Source: Thermodesulfatator sp.
GTDB taxonomy: Bacteria > Desulfobacterota > Thermodesulfobacteria > Thermodesulfobacteriales > Thermodesulfobacteriaceae
Direction of reading: 5' to 3'
Length of the DNA stretch: 33,108 nucleotides
Assembly (NCBI GenBank): GCA_027064165.1
Contig: JAMOQE010000062.1
Location: forward strand, 1 to 33,108
Both the position numbers and the translations under genes were made by a program. Shown here piece after piece: positions 14,480 through 30,812 of the stretch. The notes under the pieces are model-generated. The model did not search any database. It saw only the letters and a list, made by a program, of their open reading frames with translations, and was not told where the DNA came from. The first letter of the stretch is position 1; every line of letters starts with the position of its first letter.

Positions 14480-15256
14480 CTACCCTCCAAAATCCTCTAT
14501 ACTTAATTCTTTACAGGCTTCTTTAACCCTTTCAATAGCCTGATAAAACTCCTCCTCTATCACCCTCACCCTTAAACCAAAGGCCCTTTGCACAGCCTTT
14601 CTCACAATCTCTCCCTTTTGCAGGGCGTTCTCAAAGCCCAGCTCTGCAAATTTATCATTTACTACCTGATTCAGTTCCACAAGGGCATCTGCCCTTCTCC
14701 TTCTTTCCTCAATAGCACTCTCCAGCGGCTCATCCAGAAATTCGTCTATCTTGGACACAAAACTTTCATAAAAACTGGCTGGAAATCTCTTCTCTTTTTC
14801 TTCAAGCACAAATCCAAAAGTGATGTAAACCGGGTCTTTAAAATAGGTAAAAAGATCTGCCTCTATAAGAGAGGCATCCTCTTCAAAAAGATCCATATAT
14901 AACCTGTAAGCCTGCCTTGACTTTTCCTTTACATTAGGGGGTTTTTCTGTGTTAAATTCCAGAATATGATGGTAAAGGCTTTCATCCGCCACAATGGCCA
15001 GAATTTCTCGCGCTCCAAGATCCTTCATGGCCTCAAGCCTGTGCTGGCCATCCACCACAAAAAACTTTCCTTCCTTTTCCACCACCACAATGGGAGTCAA
15101 AAAGCCCAGCTTTTCAATAGCCATTTCAAGATGCTTCTTTAAACTCTCGGAAATATCCCTTTGAAAAGGCGGCCGATGCACCTCCTCCAGTTTCAAAACT
15201 ACAAGCTTGAGAGGCTGCTTTTTTACTGGATCCTCAAATACTGCTATCTCTTTCAT
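14480..15256 (-). CDS. ParB/Srx-fold protein with DGQHR motif
   Basis: Protein of 258 aa with an N-terminal ParB-like domain: VHRPPFQRDISESL, LGFLTPIVVVEKEG and VDGQHRLEAMKDLGAREI. The signature is DGQHR, as in DndB/DGQHR-type members, not the GERR of true chromosomal ParB that binds CTP. No ParB-type helix-turn-helix or dimerisation domain is obvious; the C-terminal 150 residues are helical and strongly charged (AIEERRRRADALVELNQ). No parA is nearby. The start is ATG 15256 with AGGGGTG just upstream; a GTG at 15265 is less likely. It begins 12 bases after ftsZ and is followed at once by the Memo gene. Function unknown; DNA or nucleotide binding is plausible. Confidence 0.75.
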   Translation of the reverse strand: MKEIAVFEDPVKKQPLKLVVLKLEEVHRPPFQRDISESLKKHLEMAIEKLGFLTPIVVVEKEGKFFVVDGQHRLEAMKDLGAREILAIVADESLYHHILEFNTEKPPNVKEKSRQAYRLYMDLFEEDASLIEADLFTYFKDPVYITFGFVLEEKEKRFPASFYESFVSKIDEFLDEPLESAIEERRRRADALVELNQVVNDKFAELGFENALQKGEIVRKAVQRAFGLRVRVIEEEFYQAIERVKEACKELSIEDFGG

Positions 15257-15268
15257 TTTTATCACCCC

Positions 15269-16387
15269 TTAATCAGCATTTCTTCTAAGGAAAGCAGGAA
15301 TCTCAAGCTCCTCCTCTGTAATCTCAAAAATACTTTTTATTCTGCGTTTTTCTTCCCTCTTTTTCTTTGCCTCCTCAAGCTGAATAATCCCTTCCTCTTC
15401 TTCTTTCTTTTCTTCTTTTTCAAGCCCTGTAGCAATTACCGTAACCCTTAAGGTATCCCCCATATTTTCGTCAAATACAACGCCCCAGTAAACCTTGGCA
15501 TCAGGATGCAATTCCTTGGCAACTGTTCCGGTAATAATCTGGGTTTCTTCCAGAGTAAATGTATCAGGATTGGCACTTATATTTAAAATCAATCCCTTTG
15601 CTCCAGAAATAGAAAGATCTTCTAAAAACGGGCTTGAGATAGCAAGCTGGGTAGCAACTTCAGCCCTTGTTTCTCCTTCTGCCTCTCCCATTCCCATAAG
15701 GGCAAGCCCTCCGCTTTCCCTCATCACTGCCCTTACATCTGCAAAATCAAGATTGATAAAACCCGGAAATAAAATCAAATCAGAAATACCTTTTACTCCG
15801 TAATATAATACATCATCTGCTTTTTTAAACATGTTTACCAGCTTTTCCTGGGGAGAACCAAGACTTATTAGCCTGTCATTGGGTATGGTAATGAGGGTAT
15901 CCACATGTTTTTTTAGCTCTGAAAGCCCGAGTTCAGCTATTTTCATTCTCATTTTTCCTTCAAAGGAAAAGGGCTTTGTTACAACAGCTACTGTGAGAAT
16001 ATCCATTTCTTTACAGATTTGAGCAACTACTGGGGCAGCACCAGTGCCTGTACCTCCTCCCATTCCAGCAGCAATAAATACCATATCTGCATCTTTTAAC
16101 ACATCCCTTATCTCTTTTTCACTTTCTTCTGCTGCTCTCCTTCCTATCTCAGGATCTCCTCCTGCCCCAAGACCTCTTGTAAGATTTCTTCCAAGCTGTA
16201 TTTTTTGAGGAGCAGGATTCAGGGCAAGCACTTTATAATCTGTATTGGCTGCTATAAACTCTACTCCCTTTAATCCATGTGAAATCATGTGGGCAATGGC
16301 ATTTCCACCAGCCCCGCCAAGCCCTATTACCTTAATAATAGGCTGGACTTTTACCTCTTCTTCAACCAATTCAAATGGGAGAGTCAT
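15269..16387 (-). CDS. ftsZ: Cell division protein FtsZ
   Basis: Tubulin-like GTPase that forms the cytokinetic ring. The 372 aa contain [12 protein letters not shown] (nucleotide binding, residues about 20-31), AANTD, the tubulin signature [15 protein letters not shown], the synergy region [11 protein letters not shown] with the Asp needed for GTP hydrolysis, a charged glutamate/lysine-rich linker (about 325-355) and the C-terminal FtsA/ZipA-binding peptide [14 protein letters not shown] 16387 is preceded by AAAGGAGGAG. It lies 11 bases after ftsA. The ParB-like and Memo genes follow without a terminator, so FtsZ does not end the transcription unit here as it often does elsewhere. Confidence 0.98.
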
Positions 16388-16398
16388 TTTCTCCTCCT

Positions 16399-17598
16399 TT
16401 ATCTAAAAAGTTTTTTTATTTTCTCCCAGAAACTGCTTTTCTTTTCCTTGGGCTGGATTTCTCTTCCTTTAAAAACTTCTATAAGCATTCCCACAGCAGT
16501 AGCATATTGAGGAAGATTTACATCTTCTGTCAATCCAGGAAATTTAATAGGATAACCAATCCTCGTGGGCACATCCAGAATCTGGTCAGCAAGTAATGTA
16601 AGCCCTGGAATAAGGGAAGAACCTCCTGTAAATACCACTCCTGCTGTAATCTTGGGCCTGAGATTGAGTTCTTCTATCTTCAATTCTATAATCTCAAGAA
16701 GCTCTCTTACCCTGGGCTCAAGAATCTCTGCAATAATTTTTTGACTAACATTCTTTGGAGGTCTATTCCCTATACCAGGCACTTCAAAAAAGTCTTCCTC
16801 TTCTGCAAGGTCTCTAAGGCAAACTCCTTTTTCTATTTTTAACCTGTCTGCCACTTTTTTTGAAGTACGAAGCCCCACGGCAAGATCCTGAGTAAGATGT
16901 TCTCCTCCTACAGGAATGGAAAATACATCTCTCAATACCCCTTCCCAATAAATAACCCCATCAGTAGTGCCCCCTCCAAAGTCAATAAGCAAAACTCCCA
17001 GATCTTTCTCCTCCTCTGTTAACACGGCCTCTGCAGAGGCAAGCCCCTGAAAAATTACATTATCCACTTCCAAACCAAGTATTTCAAAACACTTTAATAG
17101 GTTCTGCAAAGCACTACGATGTACAGTAATAAGCTGCACGTAAGCCTCCAGCCTCACTCCAGCCATACCAACAGGCTGAAGAATGCCTCTTTGATTATCT
17201 ATTACAAATTCCTGTGGCACTTCATGAAGAATCTCTCTATCCTCAGGAATTTCCACTGCCCTCGCTGCCTCAAGCACTTTATCCACATCTATAGGAGTCA
17301 CCTGCCTTTCCCTTAAAGCCACAACTCCCATTCCCTTCATGGTATTTACATGTGTGCCAGAAATACTACTATATATCTCTGCTACATCACACTCTGCCTG
17401 CTGAACAGCCTGATCCACAGCCTCTTTAATACTCGCTGCCGCCTCTTCAATATTCACTATGGCACCTTTTTTAAGGCCTCTTGAAGAAGAAAGCCCTTTG
17501 CCTGTAATCCAAAGCTCTCCCTCCCTTTCCTCCCCTATCAAAGCACATACCTTGGTGGTGCCCACATCTACCACCAGAATGCCTTTATTTTTAGCCAT
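16399..17598 (-). CDS. ftsA: Cell division protein FtsA
   Basis: Actin-like ATPase that anchors FtsZ to the membrane and recruits later division proteins. The 399 aa include the phosphate-1 loop VVDVGTTKVCALIGE, the 1C-subdomain region with SISGTHVNTMKGMGVV, the phosphate-2 loop LLIDFGGGTTDGVIYW and the adenosine loop FTGGSSLIPGL. The C-terminus SSFWEKIKKLFR is the expected amphipathic membrane-targeting helix. ATG 17598 has AGGAG eight bases upstream and overlaps ftsQ by 8 bases. Confidence 0.97.
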   Translation of the reverse strand: MAKNKGILVVDVGTTKVCALIGEEREGELWITGKGLSSSRGLKKGAIVNIEEAAASIKEAVDQAVQQAECDVAEIYSSISGTHVNTMKGMGVVALRERQVTPIDVDKVLEAARAVEIPEDREILHEVPQEFVIDNQRGILQPVGMAGVRLEAYVQLITVHRSALQNLLKCFEILGLEVDNVIFQGLASAEAVLTEEEKDLGVLLIDFGGGTTDGVIYWEGVLRDVFSIPVGGEHLTQDLAVGLRTSKKVADRLKIEKGVCLRDLAEEEDFFEVPGIGNRPPKNVSQKIIAEILEPRVRELLEIIELKIEELNLRPKITAGVVFTGGSSLIPGLTLLADQILDVPTRIGYPIKFPGLTEDVNLPQYATAVGMLIEVFKGREIQPKEKKSSFWEKIKKLFR

Positions 17599-18337
17599 TT
17601 CTGTATCTCCTGAACTTTATTAATGCTTCGCCCAGAGGATAATCCATCCTTATAAGCTCTATTTTATCGTCAAGGTTCTTTGCGTAAATATAAGTCAATA
17701 CCCTATCAAGATTTTTATACAAATACTCCCAGGACTTTTCGCACACAAGAGGAAAATAAATGACAAATCCTTTTCTGGTATAAAAACAAATTTTGTCCTC
17801 TCCAAGCACCACTCTGGAAAAATTTGCATATACAGGGAGATAACGGGTATTGTTTTTTATCCATTGCAAAAATTGTAAAAATTTTTTTTCAAAATCTTTA
17901 TTCTTTATCTCAACCACAGGATACAAATTTTTGTCCTGTGGTAAAGATTCTCCTATTATAACACCCTTTGCATCCACAAGATAAAGCCTTCCTTTTGACT
18001 TTAACAAAGCAAGCGGTTCCCTTTCCTTAACTATTATCTCAAGAGTATCAGGGAGCCTCCTTGCCACTATTACATCTTCAATATAACTATTGGTTAAAAT
18101 TCTATTTCTAATCTTTTTTAAGGGTATCCTGAAAAGCCTCTCCCCTCCTTTTAACTGAGTAAGTTCTATAATTTCTCTCGTCTCAACTCTCCTGTTCCCT
18201 TTTACCACAATTTTCTGAAGGACAAAAAAGTTCGTAAAATAAAGTACATATATTGTGCCTGACAAAAGTCCAAGTAGAAGCCCCACTATAAACACAAACT
18301 TCAATTTGTTCAAAAGTCTTTTCAATTTATCCCGCAT
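17591..18337 (-). CDS. ftsQ: Cell division protein FtsQ/DivIB
   Basis: Bitopic membrane protein linking cytoplasmic and periplasmic parts of the divisome. It has a short basic N-terminus (RDKLKRLLNKLKF), one transmembrane segment (about 14-36), a POTRA domain (FVLQKIVVKGNRRVETREII, residues about 38-57, to IVKEREPLALL) and a beta domain with YLVDAKGVII. The 248-aa length is typical. The ATG at 18337 overlaps murB by 16 bases. ddl, which often separates murB and ftsQ, is absent here. Confidence 0.92.
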   Translation of the reverse strand: MRDKLKRLLNKLKFVFIVGLLLGLLSGTIYVLYFTNFFVLQKIVVKGNRRVETREIIELTQLKGGERLFRIPLKKIRNRILTNSYIEDVIVARRLPDTLEIIVKEREPLALLKSKGRLYLVDAKGVIIGESLPQDKNLYPVVEIKNKDFEKKFLQFLQWIKNNTRYLPVYANFSRVVLGEDKICFYTRKGFVIYFPLVCEKSWEYLYKNLDRVLTYIYAKNLDDKIELIRMDYPLGEALIKFRRYRNG

Positions 18338-19248
18338 GCCAGAAACCTTACCTCAGGCTCAAGAAGCACTCCAAAATTTTTAAATACACTTTCTCTGGCA
18401 AGAGCCATAAGCTCAAGCACATGAGCTGCTCTTGCTTTCCCAAGATTTTCTATAAAATTTGCATGTTTTTCTGAAATACGCGCATCTCCTATCCTTTTGC
18501 CTTTTAACCCACACTTTTCTATGAGCCTTCCAGCAAAATCTCCCTCTGGATTTTTAAAAACAGAACCAAATGTCCTTTTTCCAAGAGGTTGCTTTAAAAT
18601 CCTCTCCTTAAGAAAGTCACACACTCTATGTCTCAAAGCCTCTTTACCTACTTTCTTTAGCTCAAGCTCCACTTCAAGAATTACTCCCTCCTGTTTAAAA
18701 TTTCTATATTCCCAATCCTCCTCCTGAGGAACAAGCCAGAAAATCCTGCCATTTCTCCAGAGTCTTACTTTTTTTACAATCTCTGCCATTTTCCTTCCAA
18801 AGGCACCTGCATTCATTTTTACTGCTCCGCCCAGACTTGCAGGCACACCTGCCAGAAATTCAGGACCAGACAGTCCCCTTTTTAGACCAAAACTTATTAC
18901 CTGATTTATCATTGTACCTGCCATTACTCTCAATTTACAGATATCTTTTCCTTCTTCAACCACTTTTATTCCTTTTAACTTCCTCAAATTAAGCACCATC
19001 CCTTCAAAATCATTATCTCCCGCAAGAAGATTGCTTCCCCCTCCAATAACAAAAGGCTCTAAGGCCTTTTCAAAACAGGCATTTAGCACACAAATGGCCT
19101 CTTCTATAGTCTCTGGAAATATCATAAGGCTCACTCTTCCACCTATTTTTATGGTGGTATATTCAGCAAGGCCCTCCCACTCCTTTAGTTCAATGTTCCG
19201 TTCTTCAAGCAGTTTCTTCACTCCTTCTATTTTATGCTGCAACAGCAT
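18322..19248 (-). CDS. murB: UDP-N-acetylenolpyruvoylglucosamine reductase
   Basis: FAD-dependent enzyme reducing UDP-GlcNAc-enolpyruvate to UDP-MurNAc with NADPH, in the cytosol. Visible motifs are AEYTTIKIGGR and VIGGGSNLLAGD (FAD binding), GVPASLGGAVKMNAGAFG, the catalytic-Ser segment RTFGSVFKNPEGDFAGRLIE and the C-terminal Glu in LLEPEVRFL. At 308 aa it resembles type II MurB. The start is uncertain: ATG 19248 is used; TTG 19266 upstream is in frame but has no better ribosome site. Both lie within the 3' end of murC, so translation is coupled. The gene ends 16 bases inside ftsQ. Confidence 0.94.
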   Translation of the reverse strand: MLLQHKIEGVKKLLEERNIELKEWEGLAEYTTIKIGGRVSLMIFPETIEEAICVLNACFEKALEPFVIGGGSNLLAGDNDFEGMVLNLRKLKGIKVVEEGKDICKLRVMAGTMINQVISFGLKRGLSGPEFLAGVPASLGGAVKMNAGAFGRKMAEIVKKVRLWRNGRIFWLVPQEEDWEYRNFKQEGVILEVELELKKVGKEALRHRVCDFLKERILKQPLGKRTFGSVFKNPEGDFAGRLIEKCGLKGKRIGDARISEKHANFIENLGKARAAHVLELMALARESVFKNFGVLLEPEVRFLACGIN

Positions 19249-20623
19249 CCTTTTCTTCTTTCTCAAAAAACAGGTGGTTTAATTTATAAATATCTCCTGC
19301 ACCCATGGTAATAATCACTTCTCTGCCTTCAACAAGCTCTTTTAAAATTTCAAAAAGACCAGATAAATCCCTGGCAAAAAAGGTGGGTTTATTTCCTCTT
19401 ATCATTTTCAAACTCTCAAAAAGATGTTCTCCAGAGATGCCGGCAATAGGGGCCTCACTTGCAGGATAAATCTCCGTTAAAAGTAATACCTCTGGCTCTT
19501 TTAAAACCAGTAGAAATTCCTCCCAGAGAGCCTTTGTTCTGGTATATCTATGGGGCTGAAAGGCAAGAAAAAGCCTTTTTTCTGGATGAAGCTCTCTTAT
19601 AGCTTCAAGGCTTGCCTTTATTTCTCTTGGATGATGGGCATAATCATCATAAATCAAGGCACCCCTCCAGATACCTTTAAACTCAAGCCTTCTTGCAGCC
19701 CCCCTGAACTTTGAAAGAAGCTTTAGCACCTCTCTTACAGGAAGCCCAAGGGAGATGGCAACCCCTACAGCACCCAAAGCATTTAATATGTTGTGTCTTC
19801 CAGGAATATTGAGCCTTAAAATTCCAAGGTATTCACCTTTATAAAATACTTCAGCCTGCGGATAAGCCCCGTTCTTTCTTAACACGGCTCTCAGATGATT
19901 TTCCGGCTCAAATCCATAAAATAAAAAGGGGCCTGAAATTTCGTATGCTACCTCTCTTACCCCTCTATCGTCTCCACACATCACCACCTGGCCAGAGGGA
20001 GCACAACGATTTATAAAATTTACAAAAGCCTTTTTTACTGCATCAAAATTTGCATAAAAATCAAGATGTTCCCTATCAATGTTTGTAATTACCTCTATAT
20101 AAGGCTTATAACATAAAAATGAACCATCACTTTCATCAGCCTCTGCCACAAGATACTCCCCTGATCCCAAAAACGAGTGGCCTTTAAGATTGTTTACTAT
20201 CCCACCCACTATAATGGTTGGATTCTTTTTTAAACCAAGCAGCACCTCCGCAATCATGGAGGTAGTGGTGGTTTTCCCATGAGAACCTGCAACCACTATG
20301 CTTTTGGGATGAAGGCTCATTATTTCAGCAAGCATCTGCGCCCTGGGAATTACCCAGAGCCCTCTTTTTTTAGCTTCAAAAAGCTCTGGATTATCCTTTG
20401 GCACAGCCGAGGAATAAACAACAACTTCCACCCCTTCCAAATGAGAAGGACTATGTCCTTTAAACACCTTTATGCCTTCCTTTTCAAGCATATTGGTATA
20501 TTTATTCCTGGCAAGATCACAGCCTGAAACATAATGGCCAAGCTCTTTTAAAATCAGGGCAAGACCACTCATCCCCACTCCACCAATTCCCACAAAATGA
20601 ATTCTCTTTTTTTCCTTCAGCAT
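19232..20623 (-). CDS. murC: UDP-N-acetylmuramate--L-alanine ligase
   Basis: ATP-dependent Mur ligase adding the first residue, L-alanine, to UDP-MurNAc. The 463 aa show the N-terminal UDP-binding HFVGIGGVGMSGLA, the ATP loop VVAGSHGKTTTTSMIAE (about residues 110-126), the central VAEADESDGSFL with its metal-binding Glu/Asp, TNIDREHLDFY and the C-terminal FRGAARRLEFKG and DDYAHHPREIKASL typical of MurC. ATG 20623 is preceded by GGAGGGG and overlaps murG by 7 bases. The 3' end overlaps the start of murB. Confidence 0.98.
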   Translation of the reverse strand: MLKEKKRIHFVGIGGVGMSGLALILKELGHYVSGCDLARNKYTNMLEKEGIKVFKGHSPSHLEGVEVVVYSSAVPKDNPELFEAKKRGLWVIPRAQMLAEIMSLHPKSIVVAGSHGKTTTTSMIAEVLLGLKKNPTIIVGGIVNNLKGHSFLGSGEYLVAEADESDGSFLCYKPYIEVITNIDREHLDFYANFDAVKKAFVNFINRCAPSGQVVMCGDDRGVREVAYEISGPFLFYGFEPENHLRAVLRKNGAYPQAEVFYKGEYLGILRLNIPGRHNILNALGAVGVAISLGLPVREVLKLLSKFRGAARRLEFKGIWRGALIYDDYAHHPREIKASLEAIRELHPEKRLFLAFQPHRYTRTKALWEEFLLVLKEPEVLLLTEIYPASEAPIAGISGEHLFESLKMIRGNKPTFFARDLSGLFEILKELVEGREVIITMGAGDIYKLNHLFFEKEEKDAVAA

Positions 20624-21699
20624 ACCAGCCCCTCCAGAGTATCAATAATCACTTTTTCTGGTTCTTTTAGAAATAGCTCCCCCATAACTTCAGACATCTT
20701 TTCAAGTCGTTGAGGGGAGGAAAAAAGCCCTGTTATAAGAGAAAGTACTTTTTCTGGGGCAGCTTCTTTTTCTGGTAAGCAAAAAGCTCCTCCCCTTTCA
20801 CTAACTGCCCTTGCATTTTTCTCCTGATGATTGTGGGTGGCGTAAGGAAATGGGATAAGAACTGCCGGAGTTCTTGTGGCAAAAAGCTCTGCAAGAGTGG
20901 TTGCCCCTGCCCTTCCCACCACCAGATCCACTTCTGAATAAGCCCAGGCCATGTCCCTTATAAAAGGCAAAACCTTAAGCCTCCTCTTTTCTTCCCCTGC
21001 AAGCAAGCTTTCATAGGCTTCTTTCACTTCCCTTTCTTCAAAAAGTCCTGTCTGATGAATCACCACAAGGTCTTCAAACCTCTTCAAAAGTTCCGGTACC
21101 ACCTTAAGGGCAAGATGGTTTATAAACCTTGCTCCCTGACTTCCTCCCATAAAAAGAATTCCTCTGTGTGTCTTTGCCTTTCTTCTCTCTGGCACAGAAA
21201 GAAGCTCTTTTCTCACAGGGTTTCCTGAAAAAACCACTTTCTCATTGGGGAAATACTTTTCACTTCCCTTTATACTCAAAAATATTTTGTCCACCCATCT
21301 TCCAAGAAGCTTATTTGCAACCCCGGGTTCAATGTTTTGCTCGTGAAGCCCAAGCACCTTTCCAGAAAGCCTTGCTGCAAGCACAACGGGAATAGCTGTA
21401 TAACCTCCAGTTGCAAGCACTACATCTGGATCAAAATTTTTTAAAATTTTTCTTGCCTTAAAAAAGGCTCTACCCATTTTAAAAAGACTCCTTGCCTTAT
21501 CTCTTGGAGAGCGGCCTACAAATCCCTCCACATCAAGCCTCTCCACAGGGAAAGGCCTATCTTTTAAAATCTCCATTTCCACCTTTCTTGTGCCAGAAAC
21601 AAAAAGCACCTCTTTCCCCTGTTCAAGAAGTGCTTCTGCCACGGCAATTCCGGGAAAAAGATGTCCCCCAGTTCCTCCAGCCACTATAAGCCACCTCAA
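20617..21699 (-). CDS. murG: UDP-GlcNAc:lipid I N-acetylglucosamine transferase
   Basis: Peripheral membrane GT-B glycosyltransferase converting lipid I to lipid II on the cytosolic face. The 360 aa contain the lipid-side G loop VAGGTGGHLFPGIAVAE, ATGGYTAIPVVLAA, LHEQNIEPG, the second glycine loop LFMGGSQGARFIN and the donor-binding VGRAGATTLAEL. The initiation codon is TTG at 21699, in a TTGA overlap with the murD stop; AAAGGG lies seven bases upstream. In most dcw clusters ftsW stands between murD and murG; here there is no space for it. Confidence 0.97.
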   Translation of the reverse strand: MRWLIVAGGTGGHLFPGIAVAEALLEQGKEVLFVSGTRKVEMEILKDRPFPVERLDVEGFVGRSPRDKARSLFKMGRAFFKARKILKNFDPDVVLATGGYTAIPVVLAARLSGKVLGLHEQNIEPGVANKLLGRWVDKIFLSIKGSEKYFPNEKVVFSGNPVRKELLSVPERRKAKTHRGILFMGGSQGARFINHLALKVVPELLKRFEDLVVIHQTGLFEEREVKEAYESLLAGEEKRRLKVLPFIRDMAWAYSEVDLVVGRAGATTLAELFATRTPAVLIPFPYATHNHQEKNARAVSERGGAFCLPEKEAAPEKVLSLITGLFSSPQRLEKMSEVMGELFLKEPEKVIIDTLEGLVC

Positions 21700-23102
21700 T
21701 GGTAAACCCTTTGGCTTTTTTCCTCTCCATAAAATCGGGGAGCCTCTTCTAAAACAAGCCTTCTAAAGGCCTCTCCCCTCTCCTCATAGTTCTTAAATTC
21801 ATCAAAGCTTGCACATCCCGGGGAAAGAAGAATCACATCTCCTGGTTTTGAAGCCTTTAAAGCAAGCTGAAAAGCCTCTTTTAAGTTCTTAGCATACTTT
21901 GTCTCCACCACTCCTTCAAGCTCCTCTCCAAGCCTCTCTCTTGCCTCACCCATAAGAATGAGAGTTTTTACCTTGGCTTTTATCTGAGGCCTTAAAACCT
22001 CATATTTTCCTCCCTTAAATCTTCCACCCATAATCAAAATCACAGAACCGCTCAAACTTTCCAGTGCTTTAAGAGTGGCATCCACATTGGTTGCCTTGGA
22101 GTCATTGATAAAATCAACCCCAGCAAAGCTTGCAATGTATTCCATTCTGTGGGAAAACCCCACAAATGTATCTATAAGCTCTGAAACAGCTTCTTTTCTG
22201 GCACCAATAAGCCTTGCAGAAAGGGCTGCAGCAGCACAGTTAAGCCTATTGTGCATTCCGCACAGCTTAAAAGAGGTAAAGTCATACACCTCTTCGTCAT
22301 CAAGTCTTATCACAAGCTCCTTTTCCTCTTTCAAAAAAGCTCCTTTTCCAGGAAAAGGCTCCTCTGCAAAGTAAATAATTTTTCCTCTCACAAGTGGCCT
22401 GTATTTGTGAAACCATGCCTCTCTTAAAGGCAAAATACTGAAATCTTCTCTGCCTTGATATTCAAAAAGCCTGTACTTATAATAGGCATATTCCTCAAAA
22501 GAGGAGTATCTGTCAAGATGGTCAGGGGTTATATTCAAAAGCACCCCGATCCTGGGCGAAAAAGTTTCAATGGTTTCCAGTTGAAAACTTGAGACTTCAA
22601 GCACCACTTTTTCCACTTTTGCCCCTTTTACCACCAGGTCTGAAAGAGGGATGCCGTAATTTCCTCCAATAAAAGTTTTATATCCAGAAAGCCTCAGCAT
22701 TTCTCCGCACATAGCAGTGGTGGTGGTTTTTCCGTTTGTCCCGGTTATGGCAACTGTGTTTTCTTTTAGCTCCTGAGGAAGACACTGCCAGGCAAGCTCA
22801 AGCTCTCCAATTACAGGAATGTCTTTTCTGATACAAATTTTGTAAACTTCTTTTGGTACTCCGGGACTTACCACCACAAGATCCGCTGAAGAAAGAAGGG
22901 CCTCTGCGTGCCCCACTTCAAAAGCCACACCATCCCTTACAAAGCTGTTTATCAGTTCTTCTGCAAAGTATTCAAGAGGCTTGCTTTCAGAAACAATCAC
23001 CCTTGCACCGCACTTAAGAAGAAGCTTTACTGCTGCCTGCCCGCTCCTTCCAAATCCAATTACCACAACCCTTTTTTCTTTTAAAAATTCCCTTAAATTC
23101 AC
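21696..23102 (-). CDS. murD: UDP-N-acetylmuramoyl-L-alanine--D-glutamate ligase
   Basis: Mur ligase adding D-glutamate to UDP-MurNAc-L-Ala. The 468 aa carry VVVIGFGRSGQAAVKLL at the N-terminus, the P-loop VAITGTNGKTTTTAMCGE, LEVSSFQLETI, NITPDHLDRY, and DFINDSKATNVDATLKAL with IMGGRFKGG near the C-terminal domain. GTG 23102 follows AGGAGG with a short 4-5 base spacer. There are ten bases between mraY and this gene, one of the few gaps in the cluster. The stop overlaps the murG start. Confidence 0.97.
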   Translation of the reverse strand: MNLREFLKEKRVVVIGFGRSGQAAVKLLLKCGARVIVSESKPLEYFAEELINSFVRDGVAFEVGHAEALLSSADLVVVSPGVPKEVYKICIRKDIPVIGELELAWQCLPQELKENTVAITGTNGKTTTTAMCGEMLRLSGYKTFIGGNYGIPLSDLVVKGAKVEKVVLEVSSFQLETIETFSPRIGVLLNITPDHLDRYSSFEEYAYYKYRLFEYQGREDFSILPLREAWFHKYRPLVRGKIIYFAEEPFPGKGAFLKEEKELVIRLDDEEVYDFTSFKLCGMHNRLNCAAAALSARLIGARKEAVSELIDTFVGFSHRMEYIASFAGVDFINDSKATNVDATLKALESLSGSVILIMGGRFKGGKYEVLRPQIKAKVKTLILMGEARERLGEELEGVVETKYAKNLKEAFQLALKASKPGDVILLSPGCASFDEFKNYEERGEAFRRLVLEEAPRFYGEEKSQRVYH

Positions 23103-23112
23103 CCTGCCTCCT

Positions 23113-24162
23113 TTATCTTATTTTTAGTGTACTAACGGCAACTACACCCAAAATAAGGGATATTATCCAGAATCTAATCACCACCTTTGTCTCTGACCAG
23201 CCTTTAAGCTCAAAGTGATGATGAAGCGGAGCCATTCTAAAAAGCCTTTTTCCCCCTGTGGCTTTAAAGTAAGCCACCTGAAGAATTACTGAAAGTGCCT
23301 CTGCAACGAAAATACCACCTGCTATGGGAAGAAGCAGCTCCTGTTTTATCATAAGAGCTATAGCTCCAAGAGTTGCTCCCAGGGAAAGGGAACCCACATC
23401 TCCCATAAAGATTTCTGCTGGATGAGCATTATACCACAAAAATCCCATTCCTGCTCCCACAAGTATGGCACAAAACACCGCAAGCTCTCCAGCCCCGGGA
23501 ACATAAGGTATGTAGAGATATCTCGCAAACTCAACATGCCCTGCCACATAGCTAAATATTGCATAAACCCCTGCCACCACACCAAAAGGCACTATGGCAA
23601 GCCCATCCAGACCATCCGTAAGGTTCATGGCATTTGAACTGCCAAGAATAACAAGCATTGCAAACAGAAGATAACCCCAGGAAAGACAAATCACCAGTTG
23701 TTTAAAAAAAGGAAAATAAAGCTCAAAAGAATAGTCCGTGCACTTTTTCAGAAGTAAGACAAAACTTATTGCCAGAAGCCCCTGAAACACAAGTTTCTGT
23801 CTTGCCTTCAAACCAAGATTGTGTTTTCTTTTGATTTTTAAATAATCGTCTATAAATCCCAGAACTCCAAAAGAAATAAGCACAAAAAGAGCAAGCCATA
23901 CAAAAGGCACCTTTAAATTACACCAGAGCAGGGTGGATAATATTACAGAAAGAATAATAATCACTCCTCCCATAGTGGGAGTTCCGCTTTTCTTTTTATG
24001 ATGGGAAGGCCCTTCTTCTCTTATCACCTGGCCAAATTGCTTTCTTTGCATAAAAGCTATAAAATAAGGCATGAGAAAATACACTAAAAAAAATCCCGTA
24101 AGGCTTCCACAAAACATCCGAAAGGTGATATATTTAAATATGTTTAATAAATTATAAAGCAC
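23113..24162 (-). CDS. mraY: Phospho-N-acetylmuramoyl-pentapeptide transferase
   Basis: Polytopic membrane enzyme coupling UDP-MurNAc-pentapeptide to undecaprenyl phosphate, forming lipid I. Motifs are KKKSGTPTMGGVIII, DDYLKIKRKHNLGL, NAMNLTDGLDGLA, NAHPAEIFMGDVGSLSLGA and the C-terminal MAPLHHHFELKGW with the catalytic histidines. I place the start at GTG 24162 (349 aa), because the resulting N-terminus VLYNLLNIFKYITFR matches the usual start of MraY and AGGAG lies ten bases upstream. An in-frame TTG at 24180 would add six unlikely residues. It begins inside the 3' end of murF. Confidence 0.96.
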   Translation of the reverse strand: MLYNLLNIFKYITFRMFCGSLTGFFLVYFLMPYFIAFMQRKQFGQVIREEGPSHHKKKSGTPTMGGVIIILSVILSTLLWCNLKVPFVWLALFVLISFGVLGFIDDYLKIKRKHNLGLKARQKLVFQGLLAISFVLLLKKCTDYSFELYFPFFKQLVICLSWGYLLFAMLVILGSSNAMNLTDGLDGLAIVPFGVVAGVYAIFSYVAGHVEFARYLYIPYVPGAGELAVFCAILVGAGMGFLWYNAHPAEIFMGDVGSLSLGATLGAIALMIKQELLLPIAGGIFVAEALSVILQVAYFKATGGKRLFRMAPLHHHFELKGWSETKVVIRFWIISLILGVVAVSTLKIR

Positions 24163-25579
24163 CTTCTCCGTACTCCTCAAGAAACTTCCGGGTTATCCTT
24201 TCCATAGCAAGTGCTCTTGAGCCTTTAATGAGAAAAATACTTCCCTCTGGAGAAAAATCCTCTTTAAAAAGGGTAGAAAAATTCTCAAGAAACTCTTCCA
24301 CGCTTTTAAAACACTTCCAGGGCTTACCTATTTCTTTGAATCCCTCTGCATATTCTTCAGCAAAGTCCCCTATAAATATGGCAGAAGCACAAAATTTTCC
24401 TGCCTCAGCTCCAACCTCTCTATGAAGCTGGGAGGAAGCTGCTCCAAGCTCTTTCATATCTCCAAGAATTGCTACCAATTTCTTTTCTTTTTGCTTTGCC
24501 AGAGAAGCTGCCCATTCAAGGGCTGCTTTTACAGAAGCAGGATTGGCATTATAAGTATCATCAATCACAAAAAAGGAAGAAAGCTCATAAATCTTAGCTC
24601 TTGTGAAAAGCCCCTCTTTTACATCATCAACCACGGAAAAAAGCTTTTCTATCTCCACTCCTGCAGCAACACAGGCTCCCATAGCAAGCCCGAGATTCAA
24701 CAGATTATGTTTCCCCAGGTATGGAAGTTCAAACTCCTTTTCTTTTCCAGAAAAAATCACTTTTAATTTAAGGCTGTCTTTTTCTTCTTTGCAAAAAAGC
24801 CTTAAGTCAGCCCCTTCCTCAAACCCCACAGAAATTTTTTTCTGAGAAAAGTTTTTCACCTTCTCCCTAAGCAAGGTATCATCAAAATTATATACCAAAG
24901 TACCGGAAGAATCTGTCTTTTCAAAAAGGCTAAGTTCTTCTTTAAGCACACCTTCCATATCACCTAAGCCTTCCAGATGTTCCGGGGCAATGCAGGTAAG
25001 CACAGAAGTCTGCGGATAAACAATCTCAGCAAGTCTTTTTATTTCTCCTGGAATATTTGTACCAAGCTCAAGCACTCCCACCTCTATTCCTTCTTTGAAA
25101 GAAAGAATGGACAAAGGTAGGCCTATTAGATTGTTATAATTTTCTTTGCTTTTTTCAGCTCTGTAAAATTTTGAAATCAGAGAATGAATTATTTCCTTGG
25201 TGGTTGTTTTTCCACATGAGCCAGCCACAGCTATGGCATGGAAGTTAAGTTTTTTTCTCCAGAAAGCAGCAAAATCTCCCAGAGCAGAAAGGGTATCCCT
25301 TACCAAGATAATGGAAATTGTCTTGGGAAGTTCTTCTGGCTTTAATCCTGTGGGAATTCTTGAAAGCACAAGGCCTTTTGCCCCTTTTTCTATGGCTTCT
25401 TTCCAAAAGTCGTGCCCATCAAATCTTTCTCCTTTTAAAGCCCAGAAAAGATAACCGGGTTTTATAATCCTTGTATCTGTAGATATACCTCTAAAGCGAA
25501 TGCCCATATCTCCATTTATCAAGATACCTGAAGTTGCTCTTACAATCTCTTCTGTAATAAATCTGTTTTCCACATTCAT
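24152..25579 (-). CDS. murF: UDP-N-acetylmuramoyl-tripeptide--D-alanyl-D-alanine ligase
   Basis: Mur ligase adding the D-Ala-D-Ala dipeptide to complete the pentapeptide precursor. The 475 aa show the MurE/F-type N-terminal GISTDTRIIKPGYLFWALKG, the ATP loop AVAGSCGKTTTKEIIHSL, LELGTNIPGEI, CIAPEHLEGLG and VIDDTYNANPASVKAAL, then ILGDMKELG in the C-terminal domain. ATG 25579 overlaps the murE stop (ATGA). ddl, which makes its dipeptide substrate, is not in the window. Confidence 0.97.
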   Translation of the reverse strand: MNVENRFITEEIVRATSGILINGDMGIRFRGISTDTRIIKPGYLFWALKGERFDGHDFWKEAIEKGAKGLVLSRIPTGLKPEELPKTISIILVRDTLSALGDFAAFWRKKLNFHAIAVAGSCGKTTTKEIIHSLISKFYRAEKSKENYNNLIGLPLSILSFKEGIEVGVLELGTNIPGEIKRLAEIVYPQTSVLTCIAPEHLEGLGDMEGVLKEELSLFEKTDSSGTLVYNFDDTLLREKVKNFSQKKISVGFEEGADLRLFCKEEKDSLKLKVIFSGKEKEFELPYLGKHNLLNLGLAMGACVAAGVEIEKLFSVVDDVKEGLFTRAKIYELSSFFVIDDTYNANPASVKAALEWAASLAKQKEKKLVAILGDMKELGAASSQLHREVGAEAGKFCASAIFIGDFAEEYAEGFKEIGKPWKCFKSVEEFLENFSTLFKEDFSPEGSIFLIKGSRALAMERITRKFLEEYGEGAL

Positions 25580-27051
25580 TTTTCTTTATCCTCCTGAAAT
25601 TTTTTTACTGCCCGCAAAAGTTCTTCTTTATCAGAAAAAGGGACCCTTCTTCCCTTTATTTCCTGATAGTCTTCGTGTCCCTTTCCTGCAACAAGAAGTA
25701 CATCTCCTTCTTCAAGAAGGGTTACAGCCTGTTTTATAGCTTCTCTTCTGTCAGGAATAACAAGAGGCTTTTTCTTTTTAAAACCTTTAAGTATGTCTTC
25801 AATAATAGCCTGAGGGTCCTCTGAGCGGGGATTGTCAGAAGTAACTATGACAAGATCTGCAAGCCCTTCTGCTACAGCTCCCATAAGCGCTCTCTTGCCT
25901 TTGTCCCTGTCTCCACCGCAGCCAAATACCAGAATAAGTCTGTTTTTAACCCAGGGTCTTATTCCAAGAAGAGCTGCCTTAAGGGCTGAAGGAGTATGAG
26001 CATAGTCCACAACGAGAAGGGCACCGTTAAAGCTTCCCACAACTTCAAGCCTTCCCGGAGGAGAAACTGCCCCTGAAAAGGCATCCGGCAAAAGGCTTTC
26101 TTCTATGCCTAAGCAAACAAGTAAGCCCCAGGCGACCCCTAAGTTAAACCTCTGAAAGTCTCCTATAGCGCTTAAATGGAGCTTATATTCTGCTTCTTTC
26201 CTCTCTATGAGAAGTGTAATCCCTTCTTTTCTCCCCAGCACTTCTACTTTAAAACTATCTGTATTTACAGGGAAAAGCCTTACATGAAGACACTCACTTA
26301 AGAGCTCTTCCAAAAGCCTTTTTCCCCATTTTGTTTCAAAAGAAATAACAGCTCCCCCTTTTTCTATAAGGTGCTCTGTAAAAAGAAGTTTTTTGCTCTG
26401 ATAATAACTTTCCATGTCTTTATGATAGTCAAGGTGATCTCTTGAAAGATTGGTAAAGCCAGCTACATCAAATTTTAGTTCTGAAAGCCGTCTTTGCTCA
26501 AGGGCATGGGAAGATACCTCAAGCACACAGGCCTCAAAGCCCCTTTTTACAAGCAGATTAAAAAGTTCAGCAAGCTTAATAATGGATGGGGTTGTCTCCT
26601 TTGCAGGAAGTTTTTCTCCCACATCATAAAACACCGTGCCAATGTAACCTGTCTTTACTCCAAGTTTTTCAAGGGCCTGTCTTGCAAAAAAAGCTGTGGA
26701 AGTTTTTCCATTTGTGCCAGTAATGCCAATAAGTTTTAATTTTTTCTGAGGATTATCAAAAAAATTTAAGGCAACTTTTCCCATTTCTCTTTTGCTATCT
26801 TTTACTATTACCTGGGTAACACTTTTTTCAGGCAAAACAGGTGGTTCTTTCAGTATAGCAACAGCTCCCTTTTTTATTGCGTCCTCAATAAACTCCTCTC
26901 CACTTTTTTGCGTCCCTTTTCGTGCAATAAATAAATACCCCGGCCTTACCTCCCTGGAATCCTCTGTAACTCCAGTTATAAAAATATCCAAATCTCCACA
27001 GAATTCTGTTATATCAACCCCCTTTAGCACCTCTTTTAAAGCTTTCTTCAT
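25576..27051 (-). CDS. murE: UDP-N-acetylmuramoyl-L-alanyl-D-glutamate--2,6-diaminopimelate ligase
   Basis: Mur ligase adding the third stem-peptide residue. The 491 aa include GVTEDSREVRPGYLFIARKG, the P-loop IGITGTNGKTSTAFFA, CVLEVSSHALEQRRL, TNLSRDHLDYHKDMESY, VVDYAHTPSALKAAL and VFGCGGDRDKGKR. The DNPR motif in TSDNPRSEDP is the marker for meso-diaminopimelate specificity (lysine enzymes differ here), so the cell wall is predicted to be of the mDAP type. ATG 27051 overlaps the stop of the truncated ftsI-like gene (ATGA). Confidence 0.97.
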   Translation of the reverse strand: MKKALKEVLKGVDITEFCGDLDIFITGVTEDSREVRPGYLFIARKGTQKSGEEFIEDAIKKGAVAILKEPPVLPEKSVTQVIVKDSKREMGKVALNFFDNPQKKLKLIGITGTNGKTSTAFFARQALEKLGVKTGYIGTVFYDVGEKLPAKETTPSIIKLAELFNLLVKRGFEACVLEVSSHALEQRRLSELKFDVAGFTNLSRDHLDYHKDMESYYQSKKLLFTEHLIEKGGAVISFETKWGKRLLEELLSECLHVRLFPVNTDSFKVEVLGRKEGITLLIERKEAEYKLHLSAIGDFQRFNLGVAWGLLVCLGIEESLLPDAFSGAVSPPGRLEVVGSFNGALLVVDYAHTPSALKAALLGIRPWVKNRLILVFGCGGDRDKGKRALMGAVAEGLADLVIVTSDNPRSEDPQAIIEDILKGFKKKKPLVIPDRREAIKQAVTLLEEGDVLLVAGKGHEDYQEIKGRRVPFSDKEELLRAVKKFQEDKEK

Positions 27052-27923
27052 AGGAGAGCTATTAATTCTTTTCCCAAGATTTTCAACTTTTCTTTATCTC
27101 CATTCACCTTCAAGGCAAGTAAGTATAACTTTTTATGTTTTATTTTCAGCCAGCAAATCACCTCTCCCATATCATACCAGCCGGGATTGTGCTGAATCAA
27201 AGAGAAATCAGGAACACATACCTTTTGGGGATGATAAAGAGGAGTTATAGCAGAATCTTTCCCACAAAGCTTTGTATAAACATCTCTGACAAGTCTCCAC
27301 ACTTTGTCCCTTTTTTTAAAGGAAAAGGGTGGAGAGGCAAGAAAGCTTAAAATTTCTCCTGTATTAAGGTCTATCACTGCTATTTCATAGGGTACATTAA
27401 TATGCTTTGTCAGAAGATAAAGCCTTTTTTCTGTTTTTATGTTTAAGGAAAGCCTCAGGGCCTGGCCTTTTTTTAATATTTCATTAAATTCTTTTTCCAC
27501 TCCGGATATTCCTATGTTATTAAAGCACTTCCCTACAAAGGATTCCAGATATGGATAAAGAAGCTTCCTCTGATAATGCTTCTGAAGAATTACATTTTCA
27601 ATTCCCTTTAACCGCTCAAATTCATCGGGAGAAAGGTTCTGCGAGAGAAGAATAAGCCCTTTTTCAGGGAGGTTAAGGGTAGTAGGCAGGTATTTCCTTA
27701 CTTCTTCGGGTATTCTTTCCCTAAAGAATCTACCTTTTTTTAAAAGATAGTAAGCTCTGTATTTCTCAAAAGAAATAACTAGGGGCTCTCCATTTCTATC
27801 AAGAATGTAACCTCTTTTAATAATAGGCGGGGTTGTGCCACTTACTTTTTGCGAAAAATCAAAAATTACAGCTATTAAAACAAGGATTGCAGAAAAAATA
27901 ACACAAAAATAACACTTCTTCAT
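27048..27923 (-). CDS. Truncated FtsI-like protein lacking the transpeptidase domain
   Basis: Occupies the ftsI position between ftsL and murE. One membrane segment (about 4-24) is followed by class B PBP N-terminal features: KRGYILDRNGEPL (36-48), the RKLLYPYLESFVG block (119-131), GISGVEKEFNEIL (138-150), LRLSLNIKTEKRLYLL (156-171) and AVIDLNTGEILSFLASPPF (182-200), which is where a transpeptidase domain would begin. Normal FtsI has about 550-600 aa; this has 291. No SxxK, SxN and KTG set occurs in usable order or spacing. The ORF is open, coupled by ATGA on both sides, and there is no space for the missing domain, so it looks like a stable shortened protein. Probably structural; a recent assembly-independent deletion is possible. 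Confidence 0.8.
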   Translation of the reverse strand: MKKCYFCVIFSAILVLIAVIFDFSQKVSGTTPPIIKRGYILDRNGEPLVISFEKYRAYYLLKKGRFFRERIPEEVRKYLPTTLNLPEKGLILLSQNLSPDEFERLKGIENVILQKHYQRKLLYPYLESFVGKCFNNIGISGVEKEFNEILKKGQALRLSLNIKTEKRLYLLTKHINVPYEIAVIDLNTGEILSFLASPPFSFKKRDKVWRLVRDVYTKLCGKDSAITPLYHPQKVCVPDFSLIQHNPGWYDMGEVICWLKIKHKKLYLLALKVNGDKEKLKILGKELIALL

Positions 27924-28261
27924 TTCCCGCCTCCGTTTATAAAATCTTCCCTCTGAGGAGGCCTCAGACCAAGTTTTTTGGCCTTTCTTAAAAGCACACT
28001 CCGTGCAGTAAGAGATTTATATTTTGTAAGAAGCTGGCTATGCTCAGCAAGCAGTTCCTGTTTAATTGTCCTCAATTTGAGCCACTGATATCCTCTATAA
28101 AAAACCCCTCCTGCAAAAAAAAGGATTCCACTTAATAAAACTCCCATAAGCAGCTTTTCTGCAAAATTTTTCACTATCTGTTTTACATCAATTTTTTTAC
28201 TAACCTTGCTTCTTCTATAGGAGGCTGCATAGCTTCCATAAATAAGTGTTTTGTGGGCCAT
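27920..28261 (-). CDS. ftsL: FtsL-like division protein
   Basis: Small bitopic membrane protein in the ftsL position. Its 113 aa have a basic cytosolic N-terminus (about 1-36), one membrane segment (LLMGVLLSGILFFAGGVFY, about 37-55), then a leucine-rich periplasmic helix likely to form a coiled coil (LRTIKQELLAEHSQLLTKYKS without interruption in heptads) and the LGLRPPQ end typical of FtsL, which would pair with FtsB/DivIC and FtsQ. Identification rests on position and architecture, as FtsL sequences diverge strongly. ATG 28261 is three bases after rsmH; the stop overlaps the next ATG. Confidence 0.8.
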   Translation of the reverse strand: MAHKTLIYGSYAASYRRSKVSKKIDVKQIVKNFAEKLLMGVLLSGILFFAGGVFYRGYQWLKLRTIKQELLAEHSQLLTKYKSLTARSVLLRKAKKLGLRPPQREDFINGGGK

Positions 28262-28264
28262 AGC

Positions 28265-29155
28265 TCACACCCTCTCTGCTATTCTTAGCTTGGCACTCCT
28301 TGCCCTTGAATTTTTTCTTATCTCCTCTTCTGAAGGCACAATAGGCTTGCGGGTAAGGGGCTTTAGCCTGGGATCTCCCTTAAAAGCCCTCTTTACAAGC
28401 CTGTCCTCAAGGGAGTGAAAAGAAATTACCAGAAATCTCCCCCCCTTCCTTAGTACTTGTGGAATGCTCTGCAAAGCCTTTTCCAAATTTTGCATTTCTT
28501 GATTAACTTCTATCCTGAGGGCCTGAAAAACTACAGCCAGCAGCTCCTTTTCCCTTCTTCCAGGACGATAAAATTCTCTTACTGCCTGCACCAGATCTCC
28601 TGTAGTTTCAAAAGTCTTATTTTTCCTTTTTTCAAGAATAAACTTGGCAAACTTTTTTGAAGCAGGCACTTCACCATAGCTAAAAACCCTTTCTAAATTC
28701 AAAAAATCATAATGATTAAGCACTTCTTTTGCTGTAAGCCTTGCATAAGAGTAGCTCATGCGCATGTCAAGAGGCTCGTCTTTTTGAAAGGTAAATCCCC
28801 TTTCTGAGTCTTCAAGCAAAAAAGAGGAAAGCCCTAAGTCAAGAAGCACAGCCTTTGCCAGAACTCCTTCTTTCTCCAAAGTTTCTGGTATTTCTGTAAA
28901 ACTTTTATTGAAAAGCCTCACCCTGTCTCCAAACCTTGCAAGCCTTTTTTTGGCTATTAAAAAAGAATCCTCATTCCACTCAAAGCCGTAAAGCAAGTCC
29001 TTCGCAGAAGTAGTTTCAAGAATTGCCTCACTATGTCCCCCCATGCCTACTGTCCCATCCACAAAAACTCCTTCTCCTTCCACTTTCATCCACTCAAGCA
29101 CCTCTTTTAAAAGTACCGGAATATGCCTAAATGGCTGCTGGTTTCTCCTGCACAC
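28265..29155 (-). CDS. rsmH: 16S rRNA (cytosine-1402-N4)-methyltransferase
   Basis: SAM-dependent methyltransferase (MraW) that N4-methylates C1402 of 16S rRNA in the decoding centre. The 296 aa begin with RHIPVLLKEVLEW and show the SAM loop VDGTVGMGGHSEAIL, VLLDLGLSSFLLEDSERGF, the substrate-domain MRMSYS and NHYDFLNLERVFSYGE, and ISFHSLEDRLVKRAF. The initiation codon is GTG 29155, 29 bases inside mraZ; no clear ribosome site precedes it, so coupling is assumed and the exact start is open. Confidence 0.96.
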   Translation of the reverse strand: MCRRNQQPFRHIPVLLKEVLEWMKVEGEGVFVDGTVGMGGHSEAILETTSAKDLLYGFEWNEDSFLIAKKRLARFGDRVRLFNKSFTEIPETLEKEGVLAKAVLLDLGLSSFLLEDSERGFTFQKDEPLDMRMSYSYARLTAKEVLNHYDFLNLERVFSYGEVPASKKFAKFILEKRKNKTFETTGDLVQAVREFYRPGRREKELLAVVFQALRIEVNQEMQNLEKALQSIPQVLRKGGRFLVISFHSLEDRLVKRAFKGDPRLKPLTRKPIVPSEEEIRKNSRARSAKLRIAERV

Positions 29156-29597
29156 CGGTTAAATAAGGATTAATCACTTTCATAAGCTGAGCAAAGTTTT
29201 GCTTGGTTTGTTTGAACTTCTCTTCAAGATCCCGGGGATTCCAGATTTCAAAATGGTTGAGCATTCCCAAAAGCACCACCTCTTTTTCAAGGCCAATTTC
29301 TTCTCTCAGAGACTGTGGAAGAAGAAGTCTTCCCTGTCTGTCTGGCTGGCACTCTTCCGCAGAACCCAGAAAATAACGCAAATATTCTCTCACCTCGGGC
29401 ATCTCCCAGGGAAGTTTGAGAAGTTTTTCCTCAATTTTTTTCCACTCCTCCCAGGGATAAGCCACCAGGCAATCCGGGTAATTTGTCACCACCAGGGCCT
29501 CACTTCCGTACTTGACACGTAATACCTCCCGAAACTTAGAGGGAAGCGCAAACCTTCCTTTTGCATCCAGATTGTGTTTAAACTTCCCTCTAAACAT
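29127..29597 (-). CDS. mraZ: Transcriptional regulator MraZ
   Basis: DNA-binding regulator at the head of the dcw cluster, known in other bacteria to repress its own promoter by binding repeated short boxes. The 156 aa carry the two SpoVT/AbrB-like halves, each with a DxxGR motif: FKHNLDAKGRFALPSKFREV (about 7-26) and CQPDRQGRLLLPQSLREEI (about 88-106). The length is normal. ATG 29597 follows GGAAGAA, a weak ribosome site that is itself part of the third operator repeat, so bound MraZ would block both transcription and initiation. It overlaps rsmH by 29 bases. Confidence 0.96.
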   Translation of the reverse strand: MFRGKFKHNLDAKGRFALPSKFREVLRVKYGSEALVVTNYPDCLVAYPWEEWKKIEEKLLKLPWEMPEVREYLRYFLGSAEECQPDRQGRLLLPQSLREEIGLEKEVVLLGMLNHFEIWNPRDLEEKFKQTKQNFAQLMKVINPYLTGVQEKPAAI

Positions 29598-29705: not shown

Positions 29706-30812
29706 CTAAAAAAGGAAGAAATAAACCAGAATTGAGGTAAAAATGAGATATATTAAAGAATAAATGTGAAATAATGTCCAAAATCTTTTATCTTTTGACA
29801 ATCTTAAAGTTATAAGATTGGCAAAAGAACTCAAAATTAACCCATTTCCTCCCACATTTACCCCGTAAGTAAGGGCAAGAAGATTCCCTGTAAACTTTGA
29901 AAGAAAAATACTTGCAGGGACATTGCTCATAAATTGAGAAAATACTATCCCTGCCATAAACACACCTTTTGAATTATGCATGTCAAATAGATGCACAATA
30001 AATTGGAAGAATGAAAGCTGAGAAAGCAGATGAAGATCCACAAAAATTAAGACAAATACAAAAAGAAACATCCAGTCCACATCTTTTACCACTCTTGGAT
30101 AACAGAAAGTAAAAAAGATTAGAAGAGGAACGAATAAAAAAGGCACCTTTCGGTATTCCATGGCAATAAGAAGAAGGACCAAAAGACCAAGAGATAAAAC
30201 AAACTGTTTCCTATTTCTGGAAAAAGGCATATCTTTACCAATCCCTTCTATAAAAACAAGAGGCTTTGAAGGAAAAAGTATGAAGCAAAAAAGACACAGC
30301 ACAGCAATCATCAGGGCACAGAGAGGGAAAAGATATTTTATGAAAGAGAAAAAACCTATATTCCAGAGATGCCAGAGGTATAGATTTTGGGGATTTCCAA
30401 TGGGAGTAAGAGCAGAGCCTGCATTTACTGCAATGGTAATCATTACCATTAATTTAGTAGCATCAATTTTTAGATAACTCTTTGTACTAAATACCAAAGG
30501 AAGTACTACAAACAGAGCAACATCATTTGTGAGAAAGGTAGAAAGCAGGGCTGAAAGCAGCACAAGTATAAGGGCAAAATGCCTTTCAGAACGCAAAGAA
30601 AAAGTAATCCTCCAAGTAAGACATTCAAGATATCCTGTCTCCTGAATGAAAGTGGTAATGAGCATGAGACAGGCAAGGGTAAAAATGGTATGCCAATCTA
30701 CAAAGGAAACATACTCAGGGATCTCCTGAGGGAAAAAGCAACTAAGAATCAAAAGCAAAATAAAAAATACCGCAAAAAACGGATCTTTTAAAATTTTTGT
30801 CATAGCTAACAT
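29706..30812 (-). CDS. ArsB/SLC13-type anion or Na+/H+ permease
   Basis: Polytopic membrane transporter of the ion-transporter superfamily that includes ArsB, CitT/SLC13 and NhaD. The 368 aa consist of about ten hydrophobic segments; the family fingerprint is AVNAGSALTPIGNPQNLYLW (residues about 133-152), preceded by LLSTFLTNDVALFVVLPLVF and mirrored in the second half by FSQFMSNVPASIFLSKF with GVNVGGNGLILSSFANLI. The substrate (arsenite, sulfate, dicarboxylate, sodium) cannot be decided. ATG 30812 has no ribosome site; an in-frame ATG at 30803 is equally possible. It is the second gene after the DUF4143 ATPase, 16 bases downstream. Confidence 0.82.
   Translation of the reverse strand: MLAMTKILKDPFFAVFFILLLILSCFFPQEIPEYVSFVDWHTIFTLACLMLITTFIQETGYLECLTWRITFSLRSERHFALILVLLSALLSTFLTNDVALFVVLPLVFSTKSYLKIDATKLMVMITIAVNAGSALTPIGNPQNLYLWHLWNIGFFSFIKYLFPLCALMIAVLCLFCFILFPSKPLVFIEGIGKDMPFSRNRKQFVLSLGLLVLLLIAMEYRKVPFLFVPLLIFFTFCYPRVVKDVDWMFLFVFVLIFVDLHLLSQLSFFQFIVHLFDMHNSKGVFMAGIVFSQFMSNVPASIFLSKFTGNLLALTYGVNVGGNGLILSSFANLITLRLSKDKRFWTLFHIYSLIYLIFTSILVYFFLF

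Follow-up and report, generated by a model that had tools for sequence, protein, structure and literature searches.

The window, the whole 33,108-nucleotide stretch of DNA that was analyzed, comes from Thermodesulfatator sp., a thermophilic sulfate reducer, and its minus strand contains a dcw cluster. Its genes are ordered mraZ (29127..29597), rsmH (mraW; 28265..29155), ftsL-like (27920..28261), a truncated ftsI (27048..27923), murE (25576..27051), murF (24152..25579), mraY (23113..24180), murD (468 aa; 21696..23102), murG (360 aa, TTG start; 20617..21699), murC (19232..20623), murB (18322..19266), ftsQ (with a POTRA domain; 17591..18337), ftsA (16399..17598), and ftsZ (15269..16387). The ftsL-like gene encodes 113 residues with a membrane segment and a coiled coil. 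It has no Pfam match, and we assigned it by its position between rsmH and ftsI and by similarity among relatives. Directly downstream of ftsZ is a gene for a 261-residue ParB/Srx-like protein (14480-15265, minus strand), and upstream of the cluster is one for a AAA+ ATPase of the DUF4143 type (30829-32085, minus strand), both named by eye. A transporter-like gene (29706-30812) lies between the ATPase gene and the cluster.

FtsW is the glycosyltransferase partner of FtsI, and in the standard dcw order ftsW stands between murD and murG. In the window, murD and murG overlap by four bases at this place (TTGA, 21699-21696, minus strand), so there is no room for ftsW, and no SEDS gene lies between them. 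This confirms the sequence-only reading, which had held that ftsW is absent rather than unrecognized. Nearly all other loci that we examined, across phyla, had FtsW between murD and murG. The identical four-base overlap was found in 18 further loci of the window's family, which excludes an assembly error. Together with relatives assembled as a single contig, these loci rule out an assembly artifact as the cause of the missing ftsW.

An FtsW and a full FtsI located elsewhere in the genome would make this a simple relocation, so all SEDS proteins and their neighbors were considered. A whole-assembly search of the window's genome (G000; 1.49 Mb, 81 contigs, 99.7% complete) found a single SEDS protein and a single full class B penicillin-binding protein (PBP) of the transpeptidase type. 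They are side by side in an mreC-mreD-pbp2-rodA operon (G000:C24), and the PBP2 has SxxK and KTG motifs. In a maximum-likelihood tree of SEDS proteins, dcw FtsW formed its own clade (100/100), and the SEDS protein of the window's genome fell with RodA on the other side (100/100); none in this genome grouped with FtsW. Its best match among solved structures was MrdB/RodA (3e-36, versus 1e-23 for FtsW), with the catalytic Asp aligned. The only pair is therefore RodA-PBP2 by neighborhood, phylogeny, and structure match, with the mreCD linkage and intact catalytic motifs of an elongasome pair, and FtsW has been lost and not relocated. Among 60 relatives, those of the window's family (30 genomes) and order had one SEDS protein per genome, except for fragmented genes in incomplete drafts, and MreB was found throughout the relatives examined. 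That a true FtsW-FtsI pair was overlooked through an assembly gap or extreme divergence is very improbable and largely refuted: although the assembly comprises 81 contigs and lacks at least one region (LSU rRNA was not found), the murD-murG junction is contiguous sequence, all seven single-contig relatives have exactly one SEDS protein, always beside PBP2 where the neighborhood was read, and PF01098 and TIGR02614 searches found no SEDS beyond RodA in this genome and its relatives.

Three further observations were made during these searches. A weak second PF00905 match in the window's genome (L005:4448-5521, minus strand; G000:C2) resembles a D-alanyl-D-alanine carboxypeptidase (low-molecular-weight PBP) and has a basic His/Tyr-rich tail. 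The rodA gene of a single-contig f17 genome (L173, G054:C1:137697-138757) is in two same-strand pieces, from a frameshift or a sequencing error. In the RodA tree, the window's family and its sister family share a very long stem branch (0.99 changes per site), and the FtsW-less families f2 and f20 have no long stem.

The sequence-only reading had also stated that the FtsI-like gene of the cluster has lost its transpeptidase domain, and in substance this was right. The protein, which we refer to as pseudo-FtsI, has 291 residues. After a membrane segment and an RGxIxDRNG pedestal start come the opening strands of the transpeptidase fold (IAVIDLNTGEILSF), and the protein closes with a short tail. 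Motif inspection found no SxxK, SxN, or KTG in it. Pfam applied to this protein alone returned only a subthreshold piece of PBP_dimer (the PBP dimerization domain), and an AlphaFold model (two sequences) had a pLDDT of 38, too low for use. A profile of 22 relatives (A4) aligned with solved FtsI/PBP structures (best, 3e-15) across the pedestal and the initial transpeptidase strands, with no match at the active site. Therefore, pseudo-FtsI has the N-terminal membrane segment, the pedestal, and the dcw position between ftsL and murE of an FtsI, and it lacks a transpeptidase domain with the three catalytic motifs.

Such a protein could be a decaying relic without function, and FtsI does shorten progressively from the outgroup to the window (643, 522, ~450, ~385, ~330, and 291 residues). 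However, the dN/dS of the truncated FtsI was 0.09 to 0.25 in the seven pairs of related loci that were scored, which is near the values for ftsL and the adjoining mur genes. In addition, nearly all FtsW-less loci, from approximately 20 families, have the gene at its usual position with an open reading frame. These findings indicate that pseudo-FtsI is not a dying pseudogene, and we regard the relic explanation as improbable. In the window's genus, the dcw FtsI is a protein without catalytic motifs that has retained its membrane segment and pedestal and is under purifying selection.

We extended the analysis to 394 genomes of the phylum by using a TIGR02614 (FtsW) search. In many families there was one SEDS protein, and it scored like RodA. 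The dcw clusters were then read in 40 genomes with a single or borderline SEDS; single-SEDS genomes without MurG (G212, G315, G319, G387, G407, and G418) were treated as gaps and excluded. Where FtsW was missing, the protein at the FtsI position was either full-length without an active site or truncated. Over all loci (approximately 120), 70 had no FtsW and none of these had an intact FtsI, whereas FtsI was intact or near-intact in the 49 with FtsW (frameshifted in one). Six SxxK-like regular expression matches in FtsW-less loci were false positives, mostly in PASTA domains (PGTPLK and similar), and motifs were therefore recounted on an alignment. For dcw FtsI proteins of at least 500 residues, SxxK was found in 48 of 48 encoded beside FtsW and in 0 of 28 from loci without it. 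All of these counts contain loci that are related to one another, and one contig enters twice (L038 and L076), so that they are not independent.

When six other dcw proteins were used to build a tree (a quick method with SH-aLRT support only), the FtsW-less loci fell into three groups. The first is a large clade with the window's order plus roughly a dozen further families, the second is f20, and the third is f26 with f50 and f112. The state of missing FtsW and dead FtsI thus occurs in approximately 20 families of the phylum with at least three origins, and the FtsW loss is ancient and lineage-wide. Three independent pairs are too few for significance in a sign test, and all three agree. In every one of the three separate events that we found, FtsW loss was accompanied by loss of FtsI catalysis, the FtsI being either catalytically dead or truncated, and there was no exception in either direction in the approximately 120 loci. 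This bears out the earlier suggestion that the two changes are linked.

Some FtsW-less loci have other genes between murD and murG. In families f26, f50, and f112, the ftsW slot holds a polytopic membrane protein of approximately 262 residues with no Pfam match (L208:10305-11093; L209:2092-2883, minus strand; L211; L212; L213; L214; L216; and L218:11085-11870). Its alignment to FtsW by hhalign was weak and colinear over the full length (E value of 0.0017, versus 0.54 for RodA and 0.17 for MraY). This protein may be a shortened, noncatalytic FtsW. Several FtsW-less loci encode a small cysteine-rich protein (CCVCxx...GYCPxC, approximately 60 to 67 residues) between murD and murG (L183:11413-11601; L184:11665-11847; L192:2166-2369, minus strand; and L189:2083-2400, minus strand).

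With FtsW lost and FtsI kept only in an inactive form, division must use other wall-building enzymes. One candidate is a bifunctional class A PBP. Of 45 well-assembled relatives, 44 encode one, and a search of the window's own assembly found none. However, the class A PBP gene adjoins an rRNA operon in each of the four congeners that were inspected, and the window's assembly has no LSU rRNA. The gene was therefore probably lost with this region in assembly. We did not accept a true absence from the species, because the neighboring gene and the LSU rRNA are likewise missing, and an assembly gap is the likely explanation. The context next to reverse gyrase, the other neighbor of the class A PBP gene, differs in the window's genome.

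The probable makers of the septal wall are the class A PBP, RodA-PBP2, or both. Because RodA-PBP2 is as universally kept as the class A PBP, the genomes do not tell which of them builds the septum. Our preference for the class A PBP comes from two other systems. Clostridioides difficile divides by using a class A PBP, without FtsW or FtsI (PMC10693644, PMC12539705), and PMC6325244 describes repression of the polymerase activity of the Escherichia coli class A enzyme PBP1b by FtsBLQ. The main alternative is that RodA-PBP2, as the sole pair of a SEDS protein and a class B PBP, makes the side wall as well as the septum and is brought to the Z-ring through FtsL, FtsQ, and pseudo-FtsI. It is the only SEDS pair in every complete genome, its PBP2 has SxxK and KTG, the long RodA stem in the window's and sister families is what a changed role might give, and the class A PBP was not seen in the window's assembly. 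However, f2 and f20 are FtsW-less without such a stem, thermophily could explain the stem, and the only FtsW-less divisome studied experimentally uses a class A PBP (PMC10693644). We consider this alternative possible but the less probable of the two.

The reading that we favor, with the class A PBP as the main septal synthase, also has a place for pseudo-FtsI. In the solved divisome, the membrane segment and pedestal are the parts of FtsI that touch its SEDS partner and FtsQLB. That complex, FtsWIQBL, has been described (PMC7614612). Pseudo-FtsI keeps these contact parts, which suggests that it could be a noncatalytic adaptor. We propose that FtsW disappeared in an ancestor shared by Thermodesulfobacteria and several related classes, and that FtsI lost its transpeptidase activity along with it. 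The membrane segment and pedestal of pseudo-FtsI, together with FtsL and FtsQ, would then pass the Z-ring signal to a different synthase. This would most likely be the bifunctional class A PBP, with RodA-PBP2 possibly contributing. We would put the probability of this overall account at about one half. The broader version is that the septal SEDS protein disappeared on at least three occasions within one phylum and that FtsI became a conserved noncatalytic adaptor that passes the Z-ring signal to another synthase, with FtsW perhaps surviving as a shortened noncatalytic protein in f26, f50, and f112. We hold this broader version with the same evenly balanced confidence.

The absence of ftsW alone is already published. 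PMC8871954 states in one line that the Thermodesulfobacteria dcw cluster has lost ftsW, and PMC7873302 reports its absence from four Desulfobulbaceae genomes. In the literature searched, with subscription papers mostly outside it, we found no report of the linked death of FtsI, of selection on it, or of repeated co-loss. Within that literature, the linked and repeated conversion of FtsI to a conserved nonenzyme appears to be new. FtsW-FtsI has been regarded as the universal enzyme pair for septal wall synthesis, and C. difficile has been described as the first exception (PMC12539705). Our data indicate that a large and ancient Gram-negative set, including cultured genera such as Thermodesulfobacterium, does without it. 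The repeated joint loss also provides a testable statement: the FtsI transpeptidase is kept only alongside FtsW, whereas the pedestal is needed regardless. These lineages are thus a natural experiment in which the scaffold and enzyme roles of FtsI come apart. One prediction is that division in these organisms would not be blocked by FtsI-specific beta-lactams.

The same or sister lineages include the Thermodesulfobacteria of PMC8871954 and the Desulfobulbaceae and cable bacteria of PMC7873302, and ftsW is likewise absent there according to these papers. However, PMC7873302 describes cable bacterial division as driven by FtsI activity, whereas the full-length FtsI proteins of our FtsW-less loci have no SxxK. 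In Bacillus subtilis and Staphylococcus aureus, FtsI has an essential noncatalytic role and its catalysis is dispensable, as described in PMC12539705. This resembles what we propose here, but their noncatalytic role is to activate FtsW, which is absent here. The closest parallel in divisome type is C. difficile, which has no FtsW-FtsI pair in vegetative division and one RodA-PBP2 pair (PMC10693644, PMC12539705); the window's genome also has one RodA-PBP2 pair and no FtsW-FtsI pair able to build a septum. A single class A PBP builds the C. difficile septum (PMC10693644, PMC12539705), whereas here we infer such a role. C. difficile also lacks FtsA and has kept its dcw SEDS protein and class B PBP as the active sporulation enzymes SpoVE and SpoVD. 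In contrast, the organisms studied here are Gram-negative non-sporeformers in which FtsA and FtsQ are present, FtsW is gone, and FtsI is catalytically dead but kept.
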